A stretch of DNA of 64,000 nucleotides from Symmetrospora coprosmae (taxonomy: Eukaryota > Basidiomycota > Cystobasidiomycetes > Symmetrosporaceae): the NCBI GenBank assembly GCA_008802785.1, contig VUYT01000009.1:598744-662743 (forward strand), written 5' to 3'. The notes below the pieces were generated by a model. The model had not been told where the DNA came from, searched no databases, and saw only the letters and a list, made by a program, of their open reading frames with translations. Position numbers and translations under genes: made by a program. Positions 25,854-61,269 of the stretch are shown in pieces; within the stretch, counting starts at the first letter, position 1; each line of letters begins with the position of its first letter.

Positions 25854-28246
25854 ATGGCAGACGCTAGAAGCACCCGTTCGGGCCAGACCGGGATGAGCCG
25901 TCGCAGCAGCATGAGCAGGCGTGAGTCGCATCAAGGCATCTACGAGTGTAGGAGGAAGATAGAGAAACAACGCTGACTAGGACCTGAAACAGAGAGCATG
26001 CTCATCAAGAAGGCAACTGGCACGTCTCTCCACCTCCTGGCCGCTGGCGACGAGGCTCCAACGCCCATCGCGGCAGCCCGCCTTCTCCGGACTCGGGCTA
26101 ACTGACGACGCCTTCTACCAACAGGCGCTTCCGACTTGAGACCTTCGGACATTCTGATTGAGCGATTCCAATCTTGGAAGATGATTACAGCCGGTTGGTG
26201 GTCCTTCCCCAGCCCTCTTCTCCCCTCTTCTCTGCTGAGATCCCCTCTCCTCTTCCCTTCCTTTTCCCTTCTTTCTTTCCCGTTCCCTTCCTTTTCTCCA
26301 TAGATCTCATCGCATATTTTCAGGTATGTGCTCCTTTCTTTTGCTCCTTCCCACTCTCCTCTTTCTCCTCCTCCCGCTCCATCCCGTCAGCCGCGGTGAA
26401 ATGGAAGCCACGCTGACAGTTGAGCACGTACCTTAGGGCATCGCGGACATCGAGCACAACACGGCGACCTCCCTGGTGAAGCTGGGCGGTGTGATTCACG
26501 TTCCTTTCCGCGCCGGGTGCGTCAGTCTGGCGCCTAGACTCAACGATACCCATCTCTGACCTGTTCATCCAACCGTAGAAACCAGTTCCTCGGTGAGGGC
26601 GGTGTCCAGGATGTCTTCTTCTCGATCGTGAGCATCGCATCGCCGTTGTGGAATGGGCCGTGCTGATCATGTCTGTCATCTCCAGCGCGAGCGAACCCGC
26701 AATATCTCCGACCACCACGCGAACCTCGCCAAGACGGTTGAGGGCTCGATCGTCCAGCACCTTGAGAAGCTCCGTGCCGAGATCAAGGCGCACATCAAGA
26801 ACATCCAGATGGACACTGGCAAGCTCGCTGCTGTGAGTTCGGACGACACCTGCCCAATTGAGAAGGCACTGGCTGACCTGAATGACTACAGACCGTCGCC
26901 AAGGAGCGCGAGATGTCCACCAAGGTCATCACCGACCTCGCCCGAAGCATCACCATGCTCAAGAACACCCCGATGGGTGTCACCGCCAAGGAGGACCCTT
27001 GGTACACCAACCAGCTGGTCGCCGTCCAGCTCCAGAAGCAGGTCCAGGAGGAGAACTCGCTCCAGAAGTCCATCATCATCATGCAGCAGAACTCTGCTCA
27101 CTTCGAGGAGGGTGTTGTCCGAGCGATCCAGTCCGCCTGGGAGACTTTCGACACCTGGTCGGGACGGTGCGTTCCTCGCAACGAGATAGCGACTAGCTTA
27201 TCATAATCCGCTGACATCGCGATTGCATTTCCAGAATGTCGTCGTCCGTCCAGCAGACCTGGGAGGTCATGGGCCAGCTCATGAAGAACGTCCAGCCCGA
27301 CACCGAGTGGATCGCCTTCGCTGCCCGATCCGACCACCTCCTCGACCCGGAGACCCCTCTCCGAAACCCGGAGCACATCAACTACCCCGGCAAGGACGAC
27401 CCGTCGGTCATCCCCGTCCACACTGGTCTGCTGGAGCGCAAGAAGCGATTCACAAAGTCGTACAAGGAGGGCTACTACGTCCTTACCCCGGCCGGCTACC
27501 TGCACGAGCACGCCTCCTCCGACTCGTACATGGGCACGCAGTCTGCACCCAAGCTTTCGATCTTCCTGCCCAACTGCACGCTCGGCGCGCCGTCTGGCGC
27601 CCACGCTACTTCGCACAAGTTCCACATTGAGCCCACCAAGAAGGGCATGGGTGGCCAGGCCTTCACGATCCGCGCTCGCTCGCACGACGAGATGTACGAG
27701 TGGTGGAACGACATCAAGCAGCTCTCCAAGGTCTACCTCACCGCTTCCGAGTCGATGGACCGATCCGGCCCCGTCCCCGCTGCTGTTCGATCGGCCGGCT
27801 ACCTGTCCGAGGATGAGGACGAGGAGGAGGGTGGATCTTCGGTCGAGGAGGAGGTGACCGACGATGAGGAGGAGGAGGAAGAGGAGGATGACGAGGACGA
27901 GGAGGTCGACAATGCTGCCACCAACACGTCTGCTGCCCCTAGCATCCGCACCACCGGCACGACCGAGACTGCCCAGGCCAACCGCCTCTCTGCTGCCCAG
28001 CAGTCGATCCAGTCTGCCCAGTCCGGCGAGGCACCCGCGTACGACGGGCCATCGACGGCCTCTGGCGTAGAGGTCGGCTCGTCCGGCTACGCGACGGAGA
28101 AGAAGACTGGCGGCGACAATGCCAGCACGAGCGGCGGCAACAACAACGCCAGCAGCTCGGCTGCCTCGACGCACACGGCCGAGACTGGCAACACTGCCAC
28201 CGGCGCCGAGATGCACCCCACTGGCAACACGCTCTCGTCGTCGTAA
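25854..28246 (+). CDS. SLM1: Slm1/Slm2-type PI(4,5)P2-binding PH-domain protein (TORC2 effector)
   Basis: Plasma-membrane adaptor between PI(4,5)P2, TORC2 and eisosomes. Nine exons: 25854-25920, 25993-26019 (27 nt), 26125-26193, 26304-26323 (20 nt), 26437-26516, 26579-26627, 26686-26832, 26892-27166 and 27235-28246; 581 residues. An F-BAR-like helical region runs from SDILIERFQSWK through IADIEHNTATSLVKLGGVI and SDHHANLAKTVEGSIVQHL to AHFEEGVVRAIQSAWETF. The PH domain follows (HTGLLERKKRFTKSYKEGYYVLTPAGYLHEH, then FHIEPTKK and MYEWWNDIKQL). The tail is acidic (DEDEEEGGSS, EEEEDDEDEE) then Ser/Thr/Asn-rich. Exon 2 needs a GC donor (intron 26020-26124); skipping it also keeps the frame. Codon use is strongly biased to C-ending codons, which suggests high expression. 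Confidence 0.93.
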
Positions 28247-28932
28247 GCGACGTGCGTCAGTCTGAGGGTGAAAATGCCCGAGCTTCTTTCTCGAAACATC
28301 TGAGCGCCAGGGGCCTATATAGTCCCTGGTCCTTCTTTTCACACACACACTACCTCCTTACAACAAGTCACTCTGTTTATATACACACATGCGTATCGTA
28401 ACATTCTGCCTCTGCCCAGTCTGACAACTCTTCCCAATATGTGCCTCTTTTACAAAGCCGCTCTCCCCCGATTAGACTTGCGCGGCGTTGTGTCTTTAAA
28501 CCTGATGCCAGTGCCAAGAGGTCGCGGATAATGGACATTATGCAATGGTCTGCTGTTTCTCGCATCTGTTGCACTGTGGATCTGCATTTGCGTGCCCTTC
28601 GGCGCTCCGCTCATCCCAAGTGGCCCGAGGACCCTATCGGGCGAACATTGCTTGCCCTCGTGACGATCCATCCGCTTTCCCCTTACCCAGCGAGCCAGAC
28701 AGCCAGCCGGCACCCTACAGTCCCACAGCAGCGGCATATCAGCGCGCTCTCCTCGTGCCAAATCGCGCCTCAGCCAGCCAGCCATGATGAGTCTGAGAGA
28801 CGCGCGACCACCGCACTGCCCGGGCCAGGGTCCCGCCCGGACGCCCGATAGCGGAGGGAGCGGGCGGGGCCAGGCCAGGGCAGGGCAGGACATGGCCATG
28901 CTGATGTGATTCTCGCGCGCGCGTGCTCACAG
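28247..28932. other. SLM1 3' region and UBC8 5' region
   Basis: 686 nt. The first ~150 nt are probably the SLM1 3' UTR and include a tatata stretch near 28316 and an AC repeat. The UBC8 promoter and its unidentified first exon should also lie here; no in-frame ATG with a consistent donor could be fixed. Confidence 0.4.
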
Positions 28933-30167
28933 CTCTCCCAAGCGCCGCATAGAGACGGACGTCATGAAGCTGTCAGTCCTGGCTGTTGCCTCGCTCCTGC
29001 CGAGTCAGTGCGGTGCGGTGCGATGCGACTGCCCAGCTGACGCGATGCCTGCCTGCATGGCATGCCCACAATGCCCTGGCGTGCACCCTTGCAGCCTCAT
29101 GTCCGACTACGAAGTCACGCTCGTCAATGACAACATGCAGGAGTTCTACATCCGCTTCAATGGGCCTGCAGAGAGTGCGTCCCCGCCTCCGTTCGCAGCT
29201 GGGCTGCCTGCCTGACTGACTTGAGCCGCGGTGGCGTGCTGACCATGACACGACACTCGCTCGCTCGCGTTTGATGGCTGGCCATACCATCCTCAACGAA
29301 CCTCGACACGGCGCATGGTCCACTTCCACTTCCGCTCTGGATCGATTGCATCTCACAGCCCCTTTTGCCGGCGGCGTCTGGAAGATCCACGTCGAACTGC
29401 CAGATCAGTACCCCTACAAGAGCCCGTCAATTGGTGAGCAGCGCCTCGCGTGCAGAGCAGGCTTCAACCTCGCGTCTACCAAAGCTCAGAGGGTGCTACT
29501 GGCTGTCCCTTTCCTGTAGGCTTCTGCAACCGGATCTTCCACCCAAATATCGACGAGTTGTCCGGGAGCGTGTGCCTGGATGTCATCAACCAGGTGAGCA
29601 GTCGTCCTTTCGTCTTTGTCATTCTTCCATACCTCAAGAAAGCTCAACTGACATGCACCTCCATTCAATTGTGGTTGCTCCACAGACGTAAGCCTCTGTC
29701 TGCAGCGCTAGACCTTTCGAACTGCACCGCATACTGACGCATCTACTGCCATGATGTACACTGGTCAATCTTCCGTCTCCGCACCGGCAGCTGGTCACCG
29801 ATGTTTGACATGATCAACATATTCGAAGTCTTCCTTCCACAGCTGCTCCGCTATCCGAACCCTTCTGATCCGCTGAACGGCGAGGCTGCGGCCCTGCTCA
29901 TGCGCGAGCCTAAATCGTACGATGCCAAAGTCAAAGAGTACGTGCAGCGGTACGCGACAAAGCAGGCGGCGGAGGAGGCGGCGGATGAGGAAGAAGAGGA
30001 GGAGGAGGAGAGCGAGGAGGAAGACGAGGACAGTGACGCGTCTGACGGCGAGGACGAGGCGGGAGAGAGTGAGTGGCGGCGCTCTTTGCTGCAATGCTGC
30101 ATAGTTATCGCTGACCTGTCTCCTATGTCGACTGTCTCTCTGTCTCCGGTTGCCAGTGGAGCTTTGA
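28933..30167 (+). CDS. UBC8: Ubiquitin-conjugating enzyme E2, Ubc8/UBE2H type (first exon not located)
   Basis: E2 enzyme; yeast Ubc8 acts with the GID ligase on gluconeogenic enzymes. Exons found: 28933-28971, 29095-29174, 29359-29433, 29520-29593, 29686-29687 (2 nt), 29791-30068 and 30157-30167. The protein runs [57 protein letters not shown], then the active-site segment [18 protein letters not shown] with the catalytic Cys, and [19 protein letters not shown]. These are near-identical to UBE2H. The acidic tail ([15 protein letters not shown]) also fits. Exon 28933 begins in mid codon, so a short upstream exon must supply the Met and two bases; I could not find it. The Thr of NQTW is encoded as AC|C, requiring the 2-nt exon. 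Confidence 0.9.
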
Positions 30168-52818: not shown

Positions 52819-55800
52819 TCACTTCTCGCAGACACCGGAGAGCTGCGAAACGAGAGCCGGCGAGAGGCAGGTGAGCATGAGGCATTTGCGATATGTTGCC
52901 AGCTCTGGCTCATAAGGGTAGCAGTCCGCGAGCTCCTTGAACGTCATGACCTTCTGGATGGTCGCGGCGATCGAGCGATACTTGTGCACATTGACGAGGG
53001 GCCGTAGTGCCATGTCCGCGGGCAGTGGTGGCAGCTCGGCAAATGTGCTTGGATCAGAGTACCCAAAGAGGTACCCTGTCTCCGGGTTGATGACCGCAGG
53101 TGCACGAGGGGAAGAAGGGTCCAGCAAAGTCAGCAGTTCCGAGGACACTGCCAGATCGCGGAGAATGAGGCCTGTAGGTAGGCACAGACTACGCATTAGC
53201 TCGAGTGTCGCAGCAGCATTGGCGGACATGATTGTGCACGCACCAAAGAAAGGAATGACGCCTGGCACACCCGGGAGTTCTACGGGAGCAGAAGCATCCT
53301 GCCCCGGCGGACCCCATTGTGAAGCGAGACTGTCGGACGCCTCGCGGAGTAAGCGAAAGTTGCGAAGATGTGAGCAGAAGAACCTGAGCTGTCCAAAGAG
53401 CCGCATCTCGTATGCCGGCACCCGGTTCCAGGTCCTCTTGAGACGCTCAATGTCGGCAGACTGCAGGCCGTGCACCAGCTGCGTGACGGTCTGGAAATTG
53501 TTGACACGATAGCATTTCTGTCCGGCGAGCAGATGCAGGCCCAGTCAGCAGATATGTCAGACATTTAGGCAATCTCGAAGTTGCTCACAAAGGCCAAGCG
53601 GATGATCTTGGCGATGAGGAGAGCCCGCGTGACAGTGCTTGTGGTGAGTACGACTGCGGACAATGAGACGTCAGCATGTTGCCTCCGAGGCAGGCATGCA
53701 AGCCTTCGGAGAACGCACTCTCGGAAGCGATCCAGTTGCACATGAGGTTGAAGCGCTGGATGATCGTCTGGACATCTCCGACCTTCTTGCTTCGAGCACT
53801 GCCGTACGGTCCCACAGCCGCAATCTGCGTCTGCAAGCTAGCATTGAGGCGCGCCCGCTGCTTGAGGTATGCATCCCAGCCAGTGACTTCGCCAATCTCT
53901 GGACGGTGTCGCCACTCGCCGCCAACCAGCTCCTGCCAGGTGACCTTCTCGAGCAGGTCCCGCTCAATAATGCAAAAGTGCTTTGCGAGGGCGTCCGTCT
54001 TGTAGTCAAAGATGAATGAGCGATGCGTAGAGGACGACCCTGACGAGGCGGGAAGGGCAAAAATGCGCGGATTAGGCACCGCGGTGCTGTCGGGAGTGGC
54101 GGTGCGCGCTGCCACGGATGTGCGCGAGCCAGGGAAGAAGCGTCGTATTGACGATTTGCGCTGGACACTCTTGCGATTTCCGAACACAGAAAGTCGCCGG
54201 CTGTCCTCGGGTGGAGGCACGCTCACCGCCACACCCTCGCGAGTGCTCTCTACGGCTGCCGGTGGGTCGCTGATATGCACGGGGTGAGAAGCGACAGCCG
54301 GTTCTTCGCTGATCACGATGCTCGTCGATTGCCCTTCATTATCCGGGCCGCGTTCTGAATCAGTACTCTCTCTCGCACCATTGACCACGCGCAGAGCTCC
54401 ACCACCAGTCGGCTCATCTCCAGTCTCCAGATCGCGCGCCTCGACTGCATCGGGAGGAAGATACCCGCCATTGGCTTTGGCATCCTCCGACTTTTTGAGA
54501 TATAGCTCGACCTTCTTTGCTTTCGACTTCTCCTTGTCCTGATCAACGAGTCCTTCGAGTCGGCGCAGCGCAGCCTCGACATCCCCTGGCTCGTCGTCGT
54601 CATCGCTGTCGTCACCCATTGGGACGAAGTACGGCACGACACCATCCCCGTTGTTCATGACGCCGTCGGTATCCCCGTCGTTCGCAAAGGAGTCGTGCGA
54701 GTCGTAGGTCGAAAAGGAAGGAACGCGGATCGCAGGTACTGTCGGGAGACCGTACGAAGAGATCGTGTCGATGGAATGCCGATACGACAGGGACCGGTCC
54801 TGACCGCTGGTAGCAGCGCGGAGATCCCGCGCAGCGGGGAGCCGCCGGATCTTCCGGACCATATTGGTCGTCCCGCCGTAGGAAGACTCGTCATCGGATG
54901 AGTCGCAATCATCCAGTTGAATTGTCCGGCGTGACTGGTCGTGCCCACTGAGGGCAGGCGACGCCGGACGCTGCACAAAGGCTGGCTGCAGCAGGGCCGA
55001 GTCTTCGGAGGTGTATTGCCGGGTCGACCTGGTAGAGTTGCGGGAACGGACCGAGTCGGCTTGCGACTCTCGCCTGATCGTCTGGGAGCTGGCGGCATGA
55101 TGCAGGGGCGGCGGCGACCGCTTCTGATTCGCGCTCCCTGGTCCTCTCTCCAAGCCTGGCGGCGAAGCCGAGACCGAAGTCACAGCTTCTGCCCCCTCCG
55201 TCTCGTGAGCAGATGCAGTCAATGCATAGATGCCAAGCCCGGGCTGCTCGACAGTCAGCATGTCAGGCGATTGCCGTCGCTCTTGGCTGCTCTGCCGGCT
55301 TGCCTGGCTAGAATAGCGGGTGCGAGCAACGGCGCTCGCACTTTGCCCCGTGTGAGGCAGGTGCGAGTCAGAGGAAGCTGAAAGGCCAGGTGATCGACTG
55401 AACTCTGTAGGATATGGCAAGGCAGGCGCATGCGCATGCGAGCCGGGACCTTTGCTGCCCATCATCCGCTTGAGCTTGCCGAGCGAGCCTACCGTCGACG
55501 TCAGGTAGCGCGACAAGCGATTATTGTCCGGCATACCGGGCAGAGCCGACAGAAGCTTCGGGGACTTGTCGCTCCCGCCAAGATGAGGCGACCGGCTGTT
55601 GCTGCTTGCTGTAAGCCCGATGCGAGGCGAGCGGTGCGTGCGCGGCCGCGGTGGAGAGATGGGGATGACGGGAGGGAAGCTAGGCCTCTCGTCCGAATCG
55701 TAGCCTGATGCGTGAATGTCAATCTCGAGATCGACGTCCTCCTCCGAGGAGGATGTTCGCATTTTCTCGCGTGTCAAGTGAGTCGCGCCAGTCGCGGCCG

Positions 55801-58800
55801 ATGCGGGTGTCGATGCCGAAAGCCCGAAAGTTCGCTGTGGCTGTTGCTGCTGCTGTCCGAGCATGTCTCTGCTCTTCTGCTTCTTGAGTGTCTTGGGTGG
55901 TAGTAGTACGTTGACCTTCTCGTCCGCCGAGCTCGCCGACGCCGAGGTAGACGCAGTTTGTGCCCTCGCTCTTCCTGTCGCGAGTCCGTCGGTCTGCTGG
56001 TTCGGCTTACCCGCTGTACGAGCGGCTTCAGCACCCGGCGTCGAGTAGGCGGCCTTGAGCTTCTTGACGACCTTCTTGAGGCTCTTGACGAGTCTGAGGT
56101 CGGTCGGACTGGAGCGTAGCCTCTCGTCTTTGCCGAGGCGATTGAGCCATTCGGTAAGAACGGTCCGCAGCTCGCGGTCGGGCAGAAAGTCCTCGTGGAA
56201 GTAATTGAGGAGCCAGTGACGTACGACGACGTACGTCCGCACGCGAACGATGCGGCGCCCAGCGATGTCCTCGGCCGACTCTGGCGAAGCGGAGAGCGCC
56301 CATTCAAAGCGCGTGATGAGGAGATGGCACAGCGCAGTGGGCGTGAGGAAAGCGCGGTATGTGAGGAAGAAGTCCGTCATCAGGTCGACCTCGATCTTGC
56401 TTGTCATCTCCGCGATCCACCGCTCCACGCTCGCCGCCATGAGAACTTTCGTTCCCGACGTTCCCTTTGCCGAAGTCGAGCTCGGCGAAGGCTGAGCCGG
56501 GGAAGGCGATAGTGAAGGGCTGGTCGGCGCAGTAGGGGAGGGCGAAGGCTCCGAGAATGTGTAGCGGCGACTTTTGGCGACATTTCCCCATCTGGAGCTT
56601 CCGCTCTGACTCGTCCCGGCGCTGCTGCTTGTATTGCTGACTGGGCTGTCCAGGTTGCCGGATGAAGAAGCTGCGGAAGGCGTTTGGTGCAATTGCCGCT
56701 GCTGCGAGCGGGCTGGCACCTGCTTTATGCCCCAGATGACGAAGCGTGGATCATCGCCCGGACTCGAAGTGACGGTGATCTCGTGCGCCCGGTCTGGGTT
56801 GGATGTCACAGAGGTAACAGACCGAAGTGAGGCTATCGAGGCCAGCGAGGTAGAAGACATGCCCCGCTGGTGGTGCCTAGGGTCTGTCTCGTTGACGCCA
56901 AGACTCGCACGGCTGCTCATGGCGCTCTGGCGACCGCAATTGCCCAGCTCGAATTCCTGCATGATGTCGAAAATACGGATATCGATGTCGGACACGGGTG
57001 TTGGTACCCGAGCTGGAGCTGGACCCTCCTGCGAAGCCTTGGCAATCCTGCTCGCCAAAGGTGTCGAGCAGTCACCACTGCCATCCCGCTCGCCATGACC
57101 CTGCGGTGCGCTGTCGGAATCGACAACGCACATTGCAGGAGCGGTCGGCAGGGCGGGATGGCTCTCGTCTACGTACGTCGAAGTGCGTATCGTTTCGCTT
57201 GACGCTACCTCCCTCAGGATCCTCGAGCTATCGTCTCGCAAATGCGAGAACGAGGACTGCACGACTGCCAGAAGTTCCGCATCCATCTCCATGTCGGACA
57301 TCGCGACCGGCTCGGGCAGGCCGTCCGGCCGTCCGACCGCAGTAGCGGCTGCATCTTCCTCGTCCTTCATCTGGCCGAGCGAGGATGCGATATTTGGCAA
57401 CTCGCCCATGCTCTTTCTCCGCCGCACCAGTCTGGTCGGCGAGCTGGGCAAGCGCACGCCCGAGCCAAAGGGTGAGCTCGAAGCGGCGTGGCTCACGGAG
57501 CGGTCCGTGCCGGACGGACCATGCGGACGCGCGCTGCCTATCGGCGTTCCCAAACCTAGCGCAAGAGCATTTGGTAGGCGCGACGTTGTCGCTGCACGCT
57601 GCATGAGCAGGGAGGCTTGTGGCGTTGCGTTGCTGTTCGCCTGCGGTGTAGTGTTCGGCGAGAAGCTCTGGGGAAAGGCGTTGGCAAGCGGCGTCTGCAG
57701 ATCTGGCGGGCGAGAGTCGTATGGGACGACTGGCTGGGCTTCTGCCTTGGCGGGAGGTAACTCCGCTGTCGACTGAAAATGTGACGTTACGTTGCTGGGC
57801 AGGCCCTCCTGCTCGTGCATTTGCGAGACGGCCGGGACAGCACCTGCGTCGTTGGCGGGAAAGACCGTTGCTGCGGGTGATGCTAGATTGTCTGTCTGAT
57901 GCGTCCGTGCGGTATGAAATGAGTCGAGCTGAGGCACAGCTGGCCTGTTGGCGAGAGGTAGTGCCTGCTGCGAGATTGTCTGCGACGATGAGCCGGCCCG
58001 GCGCAGGTGCGACTGGAAGGCAGAGCTGGCAGGCACGCCTTCAGCAGAAGTAGCTGGCGGCGTCGAATAACTCCATCCGATGAGCCTCCCAAAAACGTCG
58101 CCGTCTGGGACCGTGTCGCGCTCTGCGCGCAGGTTGGGTATGCTGAGAGCAGTCGTAAGGCTCGTGTTTCTGGGACGGCTGTCTGCGAGAGCATGCCGCC
58201 CTGAGGGCTGTGGTAGGAGATGGTGCGTCGAATCTGGCGGCGCCTCAAGGTACTGGCCATACGGCGAGTCGGTCGGAGGACGGTAGAACCCATCCTGGTC
58301 CCGGTGTATGGGCGCGAGCGTGCTGGGACCTGCGCCAGAGTTGGACCGGAGGTTGGGTATGGAGCGCGTCAAGCGGATTGACGGGGCTCGGAGTGCTGAC
58401 GTCGAAGTAGCTGTTTCTCCTGTCTCACCGCGCGGCTTCTGCGGGCTGCTCGTCCCAGTCGCGGGTCTCGAGCGCGGTCTGTGCGCGAGTGTGCTTTCCC
58501 GGTCAGTCTGAGGAGTTGCGCGCGCGCTTCGAGCGGCCAGTGAGGAAGCAGCCCACCTGATGCGATAGATCTTCTTGCCATTCTCCACCCTTGCTACGAC
58601 GACGTAGTCCTCGGTGTTGGCCAGGTTGCGCTCCTGGCTCCCTGCGCCGTCAGGTAGCCTGAGTGGCTCGTCCGCCTGCAGCTGTCCGACTGTATCATCC
58701 AGCAGCTGAGGCTGAGCAGCATCTCCCGCAGCCTCGTTTCTTCCCCTCTGGACCCGCTCTTGAGCATGAGCATGTCTAGGCCGCAGTGCACCCACTCCAG

Positions 58801-59398
58801 CGCCGCCACCACCACTCCTATTCTTGACCTGAGTATTCCAGTACTGCGCGAGAGCGAGGGCCGCATGTGCTGAGGTCGTCTCGACAAAGCTGCCGTCGTC
58901 CATGTCGATACCTTTGCTGCTCGTAGTCGCGGCTGTCGCCCCTGTCACGCCTGTATTGATATTGGTGGTGCTGCCGGTGACGGCGTCAGGTGGAGCGCGT
59001 AGGGTGGCCATGGACGGCGACGGAAACGACGAGGTCTTGCCCTGTGCTGGCCCAGGTGAGGACGACGAAGGAGACGACAGCAGGGTAAATGGCAACCTCC
59101 ATCGAGGTGTGCCTGCTCCTGTCGCCGTCCCTGCTCCTCCTCCCGTATTGCCATTGCCGCTGCTGCTGGCCCTGTGCGACTCTGGCGTGGGAAGCGTCGG
59201 ATTGCTCGAGAACGGCACGCCGGTCCAAGAAGGCGGCGATGACGATGAAGAGGCTGAGGCTGAGGCTGTCGTGTCATCCGTATAGCAGCTGCCTCTGCGC
59301 GCCTCATTGCTGCTGCTGCTGGTGGTGGTGCTAGTACCGCTGCCGCTCCCGCTGTAAGTGGCACCGTCCGCCTCGACCATCCTCCTTGTCGAGCTCAT
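52819..59398 (-). CDS. LTE1: Lte1-like Ras-family guanine nucleotide exchange factor (2147 aa)
   Basis: RasGEF protein; yeast Lte1 promotes mitotic exit at the bud cortex. Exons 59398-53719, 53653-53589 (65 nt) and 53517-52819, in phase. The first ~980 residues are Ser/Thr/Pro-rich and apparently disordered, with one ordered patch (EDYVVVARVENGKKIYRIRWA). The RasGEF N-terminal domain is near 985-1110 (SVERWIAEMTSKIEVDLM, FFLTYRAFLTPTALCHLL, TYVVVRHWLLNYF). A second disordered stretch of ~680 residues leads to the catalytic domain near 1795-2147: SFIFDYKTDALAKHFCIIE, VTWQELVGGEW, IIQRFNLMCNWIASEIVLT, VNNFQTVTQLVHGLQS, RLKRTWNRVP, FFGACTIMSAN. A split N-module and C-terminal GEF domain is the Lte1 layout, though it is longer than yeast's 1435. 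The start is the ATG after an upstream leader frame; the leader might also be translated from 59590. Confidence 0.88.
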
Positions 59399-60024
59399 TC
59401 TCGCACTGCCATGGCGGACAGCCTGTACGCTGTGCAGAGAGCGCTCGCTTGAGCTCAGGCTAGATGCACAACTCGTATGAGAACAATGCAGAGATGTTCC
59501 TTTTGCTTCTCCTTGGTCACCTTTCTCAGAGACGAGAATAGGGGTATGTCGGACCACAGGATGGCCAAGGCGAAATGATTGCGAATACACGAGGACATAG
59601 GCGCAGGAAGCGATGACGTTCGCGTAGATAACCTAGTTACTGATGCGGGAGACGACAGAGGGAGTACACATATCAACAAAGTCGGAACAGCATGCGGACT
59701 GGAAGAGGAGACGACGCGCAAGAGAGCAGAGGAAGGGGAGGGACTGGATACAGAGCAGCACAGGATCATAAGGGTCCTGCGTGAAGTGTGATGAGGAAGG
59801 GCGGCACGATCTGCGTGGAAGCAGGCCATCTGTGCAAGGCTTGTTGGCTGAATAGCCTACCGCGTTAATGGCGTTTGGCCGAGACGGATGGCGCATGTCT
59901 GCATGCGTACCGATTTGTCATTATCGTGAAGAGAGTATCTTGTGCGTGTGTGTGTGGTTGCTGAGCCCGTCCATATGTGCATGCGAGACGAGGTATCTGT
60001 CGCAGCTTAACCATCGTAGACCCA
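59399..60024 (-). promoter_or_regulatory. Upstream region of the LTE1-like gene
   Basis: 626 nt between the LTE1-like start and the RHO2 stop, same strand. Includes the RHO2 3' UTR and presumably the LTE1 promoter. A GT-rich run lies near 59942-59955. No ORF supported. Confidence 0.4.
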
Positions 60025-61269
60025 TCACAGGATGACGCAGCATCCCTTCGAGTGGTCGGCAGGCTTGCCTCCGGCGCTGGCGCCTCCGTCTCCGCTCTGC
60101 AGGATGGTCGACTTGCGCCTGTCGCCCTTCTCTGCGAGGCCATTCGCGCCGCCTCCCACGCCGCCTGCGCCGGATCCCTGGTGGTGGTGGTGTGCGCCCT
60201 GCGACGCGCTCCGCACGAGCATGGCTTGCCGGGTCGCCTGCTCAAAGATCTCGTCGACTCCTTCCATGCGCAGGCTGCTGCACTCCATGTACATTTTCGC
60301 GCCAATCTCGCGCTGCACCGCCTGTGCGCGCGACGTGCTCACCCAACGCGGGTTGTCGTCTACGCTCACGTCCTCCCCGCGCGCCTCGGCGTCGTCCCGC
60401 AGGTCCTTCTTCAGGCCCACGAGCATGACGGGGATCTGCGTCCCGCAAATGTCCTGCACCTCGGGCGACCACTTGTAGCAGCAGTTCTCGAGGCTGTCGG
60501 GCGTGTCGAGCGAAAAGGCGATCAGGATGATGTGCGATTTAGAGTAAGATAGTGGACGGAGGCGCTGTGGACCATGGGTTTCAGCATTGAGGACCTCAAT
60601 GACCGTACCCAGTGTCGGGACGTACCTCGTATTCTTCTTGGCCTGCCGTGTCCCACAACGCGAGCTGGACGCGCTTTCCATCGAGGCTGTGCGATGAGCC
60701 AAGAGCCGGTCAGCGGGACCTGACCACGCAGGGAAGAGGTCAAAACGACTGACCGGATCTCCGCTACGTAATTCTCAAAGATTGTAGGATGGCTGGGAGG
60801 ATAGGAGATATCTCGGCGTCAGCAAGAACAGCGGACGTCCAGAGTGGGACCTGTCCAGAGTGGGAACCTGCTCACTACTCCTTTGGGAACTGGCCCATCG
60901 CAAAAACAGAGAGCAACGACGTCTTGCCTGACGCTCCATCGCCTGGTGCATGCCGGAACGTGAGGGGCCATTCGGGCGCAGGTCGCGCGCAGTTACGGAC
61001 ATGGAGACGGCGACGGAGACGAGAGCGATGGACGGCGGGTGAGGGACAGCGATGGGAGACCGTATCAGCATGATAGCTATCATGAACGTAGCTGTCTGCA
61101 GCTGATCCTTGTGCCCATGCTTCCGCACTGACCGACAATGACGAGCTTCCGACGGATCTGCGTCGAGGTCGTGGATGTCAGCCCAAATAGCCTACGCAGC
61201 AGCAGCAGCAGCAGCGTCGTTTCGACTGCCACGCCACGCGGGACAATGGCTCACTGCAGGAGGGGCCAT
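60025..61269 (-). CDS. RHO2: Rho-family small GTPase, Rho2 type
   Basis: Membrane-anchored switch for cell-wall and polarity signalling. Six exons: 61269-61255 (15 nt), 61157-61133 (25 nt), 60942-60876, 60792-60754, 60686-60626 and 60564-60025; 248 residues. It starts MAPPAIRRKLVIVGDGASG (P-loop GDGASGKTS), then the effector segment FPKEYHPTIFENYVAEIRLDGK, switch II LWDTAGQEEYERLRPLSYSKSH, PVMLVGLKKDLR, and the Rho helix with ECSSLRMEGVDEIFEQATRQAML, the last typical of Rho2. The variable tail has a His run and Gly-rich stretch and ends GCCVIL, a CAAX box with an extra Cys that could be palmitoylated. Leucine at the X position predicts geranylgeranylation. Short leading exons are supported by exact phase and P-loop continuity. 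Confidence 0.93.
61197..61215. repeat. CAG/CTG trinucleotide run in RHO2 intron 1
   Basis: Six CAG units within intron 61254-61158. One of three trinucleotide runs of the same kind in the window, all non-coding. Confidence 0.8.

Follow-up and report, generated by a model that had tools for sequence, protein, structure and literature searches.

The described systems closest to the locus reported here are genes with exons of a single nucleotide. In plants, Arabidopsis APC11 has a 1-nt exon that was validated by cDNA and reporter constructs (PMC4674806, whose abstract gives 3 nt as the size of the smallest alternatively spliced exon before it), and VPS55 has a 1-nt exon for which cDNA evidence is described (PMC8831610). 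The P450 gene CYP621A of Fusarium carries another, reported for 20 orthologues (24 genes in the Discussion of the same paper) and 18 reads (PMC12940212). That paper also states, second-hand, that exons of 2-5 bp have been found in Arabidopsis, Drosophila and human, and it suggests that a cryptic exon may make up for a base that has been lost close to the edge of an intron. Two 3-nt exons are mentioned for a duplicated fungal gene (PMC5639578).

Here we describe a candidate exon of 2 nt, the dinucleotide AC, in the UBC8 gene of Symmetrospora coprosmae. As those papers portray APC11 and VPS55, it resembles them in being an ultra-small exon held between an AG and a GT, in a conserved gene whose reading frame needs it; it resembles CYP621A in that the neighbouring exons are out of phase within a conserved motif and an AG-N-GT type of site lies inside an over-long intron (PMC12940212). 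It differs from all three in being 2 nt rather than 1 nt long and in being proposed from sequence, whereas the plant exons are backed by cDNA and the Fusarium exon by orthologues and reads; unlike APC11 and VPS55, it also lies in a fungal gene. Literature searches, judged by title and the start of the abstract, found nothing on a 2-nt exon or on UBC8 together with a microexon, and further searching brought up nothing closer to the AC exon than the systems named here. Because exons of 2-5 bp are stated to exist in PMC12940212, we do not claim that its size is unprecedented: the AC exon belongs to a rare kind that is already known, and not to a new kind.

Stwintrons (PMC9024468 and others) share with UBC8 neighbouring U2 introns, consecutive reactions and occurrence in fungi. 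As described, however, one intron of a stwintron interrupts a splice signal of the other, whereas both introns in UBC8 are complete and AC would stay in the mRNA; we rejected this classification, as in the genomic sequence no donor, branch motif or acceptor of either intron is interrupted. The recursive-splicing exons and cryptic microexons of human cells (PMC6224609) are alike in having a donor that coincides with an acceptor or follows it by a few nt and in the use of that donor in a second step, but the human cryptic microexon is described as EJC-repressed, whereas inclusion of AC is required for the UBC8 protein. A zero-length recursive splice site was also rejected, since the sequence here reads AG-AC-GT and loss of AC costs the Thr codon and the frame; recursive splicing, offered as an alternative in a preliminary description of the locus, thus fails in its strict form, where zero-length use of an AG-GT site leaves no AC.

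The UBC8 gene and its protein

In the stretch of DNA analysed (the window, 64,000 nt, with a GC content of 0.58-0.65 along its length), a UBC8/UBE2H gene lies at 28933-30167 on the plus strand, and translation of its listed exons gives 185 residues through EMEL-stop. A homology search of the genome (20.05 Mb, 77 contigs) that scored only the best candidates found UBC8 once, the other E2 matches being four fragments 33-40% identical. Compared with the PDB by phmmer, the protein had Ubc8/UBE2H-like chains as its first five matches (E 3.4e-70 to 4e-57), the best being 8pmq (3.4e-70), which we take to be yeast Ubc8, and 8pjn (1.7e-67), named Ubiquitin-conjugating enzyme E2 H and presumably the human protein; other E2s appeared from rank six onward, far behind, at 4.4e-26 or worse. 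Full-length closeness to these chains, the catalytic Cys and the acidic tail place the gene in the UBC8/UBE2H class, and its C-terminal MEL-stop matches the end of UBE2H entry 8pjn. Intron-rich genes, the CTGAC branch motif and the nearness of this protein to yeast Ubc8 are in keeping with a fungal, perhaps basidiomycete, source.

Coding exons identified by translation and homology lie at 28933-28971, 29095-29174, 29359-29433, 29520-29593 (containing the catalytic-cysteine segment SVCLDV and ending in VINQ) and 29791-30068, all on the plus strand and all except the first also recovered by the genome search, and the last coding exon, 30157-30167, ending in MEL-stop, was identified by translation and the 8pjn alignment. 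Apart from the junction discussed below, all junctions from 28933 on are GT-AG and keep the frame. The start-codon exon lies upstream of 28933, and 28784-28932 offers it no good GT donor of fitting phase; one possibility is an ATG at 28784 with a GC donor at 28864, a 69-nt intron and a CTGAT whose distance to the acceptor is 28 nt, and the same region holds ATGATGA directly before a GT, where one base is lacking for the required phase. Introns 29175-29358 and 29434-29519 have no CTRAY within 70 nt of their acceptors, unlike most introns resolved in the genome, and the CTGAC motifs of the former are far upstream, close to its donor. The upstream neighbour of UBC8, at 27236-28246, encodes a PH-domain protein (PH_20). 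Elsewhere in the window, the minus strand encodes RasGEF_N and RasGEF domains in an open frame of 2001 aa (53585-59590), with a Ras-like match close by, at about 60223-60691.

Two nucleotides restore the conserved motif

The exon that ends at 29593 reads AACCAG at its edge, followed by GTGAGC, and the exon that begins at 29791 opens with CTGG. Joined directly, the two give VINQ-LVTDV-stop, so that the frame is broken, as the preliminary description had it, although the stop that it called immediate (TGA) comes only after five residues. With AC (29686-29687) spliced in, the translation becomes VINQTWSPMFDM, AC providing bases 1-2 of an ACC codon (Thr) whose third base, followed by the Trp codon, starts the exon at 29791. 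The motif is better written as N-x-T-W than as the universally conserved NQTW first proposed: N, T and W stand at the matching place in 5/5 of the best PDB alignments, but the residue between N and T varies, with NSTW in the best PDB match and NQTW in the other four alignments shown.

On either side of AC lies a putative complete intron. The upstream one, of 92 nt (29594-29685), runs from GTGAGC to CACAG, ending in CTCCACAG at 29685, with a donor of 9.7 bits and an acceptor of 7.5 bits; the downstream one, of 103 nt (29688-29790), runs from GTAAGC to GGCAG, ending in CGGCAG at 29790, with 5.6 and 4.4 bits. Each contains a CTGAC branch-point motif, at 29648-29652 in the first (its A 34 nt from the acceptor) and at 29734-29738 in the second (53 nt). 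The positions, CAG acceptor, GTAAGC donor and branch motifs first reported around AC were therefore exact.

We then enumerated splice combinations around the junction, allowing donors (GT or GC) between 29521 and 29830, acceptors (AG) as far as about 29860 and introns of at least 30 nt. None of the 212 one-intron combinations yielded VINxTW, and exactly one of the 6,028 two-intron combinations yielded VINxTWSPM, namely the proposed AC exon. Likewise, NQTW was absent from all 70 stop-free single-intron solutions listed, whether they started with GT, GC or AT. Four near fits with other internal exons (CCTCT once, C three times) were rejected for poor sites and an altered motif. RNA structure across the region was unremarkable (z-score 0.78), and scans of a viral-contig and a genome-contig collection returned no orthologous DNA from a relative.

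The AC exon is thus required for the reading frame of a conserved protein and is flanked by complete introns with the usual donor, branch motif and acceptor, the downstream donor being weak but within range. No other canonical arrangement was found that would restore the conserved protein, and we consider it probable, at roughly 0.87, that UBC8 has a genuine, constitutive 2-nt exon, AC at 29686-29687, between two complete U2-type introns.

Splice signals against the genome's own introns

Splice-site profiles were built from homologous junctions elsewhere in the genome, with UBC8 left out. The 103 junctions, chosen by hand, belong to kinases, E2s, chaperonins, proteasome subunits and Ras-like proteins. 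From 25 E2 and 150 kinase rows came 49 pairs, and further pairs came from 29/31, 23/27 and 37/46 rows; any pair that broke the profile order was left out and not counted. One GT-AG intron resolved 78/103 of these hand-picked junctions, with lengths of 58-385 nt (at most 92 nt in 58/78, at least 166 nt in 10/78) and CTRAY as the best branch motif in 61/78; the remaining 25 had no such solution at threshold, and in many of these the fragments were separated by missing profile positions. Against 80 reference introns, the acceptor upstream of AC scores higher than 95% and the downstream acceptor (ending at 29790) higher than 42%, but the downstream donor, GAC followed by GTAAGC, is weak, scoring higher than only 7%. 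The donors, acceptors, branch motifs and lengths flanking AC are within the range of the genome, and the weak downstream donor counts against the AC exon.

When GC donors were allowed, one intron solved 72 of 78 profile-contiguous junctions (UBC8 being among these 78), two of them as GC-AG. UBC8 is one of the six left unsolved, which speaks for the AC exon; by eye, two of the other five look like in-frame inserts and one like an intron beside an insert, and two are unexplained E2 fragment pairs. Kinase junctions L047 and L036 fit GC-AG introns by eye, and the genome seems to use GC donors.

The 103 junctions, to which UBC8 did not belong, also served as a screen for other tiny exons, with two-intron modelling restricted to junctions without a good single intron. 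Such models were proposed for five junctions, with exons of 18, 20, 24, 41 and 57 nt, of which those of 24 and 41 nt look poor and the other three good; in the best-scoring models the small exons are those of a kinase (L040, 18 nt), a proteasome subunit (L081, 20 nt) and a Ras-family gene (L099, 57 nt). That small exons of this order occur in the genome supports the AC exon. Among the 103 other junctions, 18 nt was the smallest exon length called, and UBC8 alone had a shorter exon in the two-intron modelling; an earlier run, whose profile drew on fewer introns, had proposed a 12-nt exon at one kinase junction, which the later run did not list as unresolved.

Chance and alternative explanations

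Another way to view the AC site is to ask how often a comparable one arises by chance, which we estimated with the first splice-site profile (from 44 introns). AG-AC-GT occurs 32 times on both strands of the window (128 kb), seven times with both site scores at least 3 (0.0108 per 197 nt), and once with such scores and a CTRAY 12-60 nt upstream (0.0015 per 197 nt), this site being included in each count and the only member of the last. Among 20,000 dinucleotide shuffles of the 197 nt, AG-AC-GT leaving introns of at least 50 nt appeared in 1.8%, in 0.245% with scores of at least 3, and in 0.015% when branch motifs in both introns were also required.

These figures bear on the alternative that survives best, in which there is one intron of 197 nt, the assembly (or strain) lacks two bases at an exon edge and the AC site is a coincidence. 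Such an intron is compatible by length, since 10/78 resolved introns reach at least 166 nt. It would, however, need a 2-nt error at the junction in addition to a coincidental AC exon with good sites, at 0.0015-0.011 per 197 nt. Moreover, four of the five short-gap junctions shown are explained by ordinary or GC-AG introns, by an inspection by eye that is not a systematic test of error rate, the fifth (an E2 fragment pair) being unexplained. We regard missing bases as quite unlikely.

A different splice pattern is very unlikely to be the main one. The donor at 29594 joined to an acceptor at 29842, for instance, has good sites (9.7 and 6.4 bits) and is in frame and free of stops, but loses 18 residues, a block that aligns without gaps in the five PDB alignments shown; its product would be a minor isoform at most. 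Decay of UBC8 into a pseudogene with a 2-nt frameshift is hardly credible: a start-codon exon with no good GT donor speaks for it, but this is the sole UBC8-like gene found in the genome and the rest is in frame from 28933 to a C-terminal MEL, as in UBE2H.

Order of intron removal

If AC is an exon, each flanking intron could be recognised by intron definition, with a donor, CTGAC and acceptor to itself in a span of about 100 nt. Factors on an acceptor and on a donor 2 nt away would overlap; the two sites could hardly be bound at once, and the introns would thus be removed in sequence, most likely one after the other with AC retained. The upstream intron, with the stronger sites, would most likely go first, leaving CAG-AC followed by GTAAGC, and the weaker downstream intron would go second. 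As the upstream exon and the upstream intron both end in CAG, the trinucleotide that precedes the second donor is GAC whether or not the first step has taken place. We think that this sequential, recursive-type pathway, which yields the same mRNA with a 2-nt exon, is the favoured route. In an mRNA from which AC was left out, the stop codon would precede the last exon junction by 260 nt, and nonsense-mediated decay would probably target such an mRNA.

In human cells the EJC is reported to repress donors a few nt 3' of a fresh junction, and a reporter with a 6-nt microexon is described as having been used in part-spliced form only (PMC6224609). The genome analysed here encodes homologues of Mago and UPF1; a search of it for Btz gave no match, an empty result that is uninformative for this query. 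Given the human repression and the Mago homologue, the removal of the upstream intron first is counted against unless the EJC acts differently here, and with both homologues encoded, EJC repression and decay of the skipped mRNA are live questions. A bolder proposal is that the AC exon is a regulated switch, in which inclusion gives active Ubc8, skipping gives a truncated, decay-prone mRNA, and splicing order together with the EJC sets the level of the enzyme, which in yeast is the E2 of the GID ligase; we consider such a switch unlikely. As for its origin, it is possible that the AC exon arose through loss of a base near an intron edge and rescue by a cryptic exon.

Significance

The AC exon would rank with the smallest exons on record and would offer a good test case for an exon too small for its own recognition: exons of 1-2 nt are hardly recognisable by exon definition, which implies that the introns are defined alone and removed in sequence. 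Gene prediction that does not allow for such tiny exons would truncate the Ubc8 protein. With a 2-nt exon in a conserved gene, in a genome with Mago and UPF1 homologues, the order of intron removal and the second donor's escape from EJC repression would become testable.
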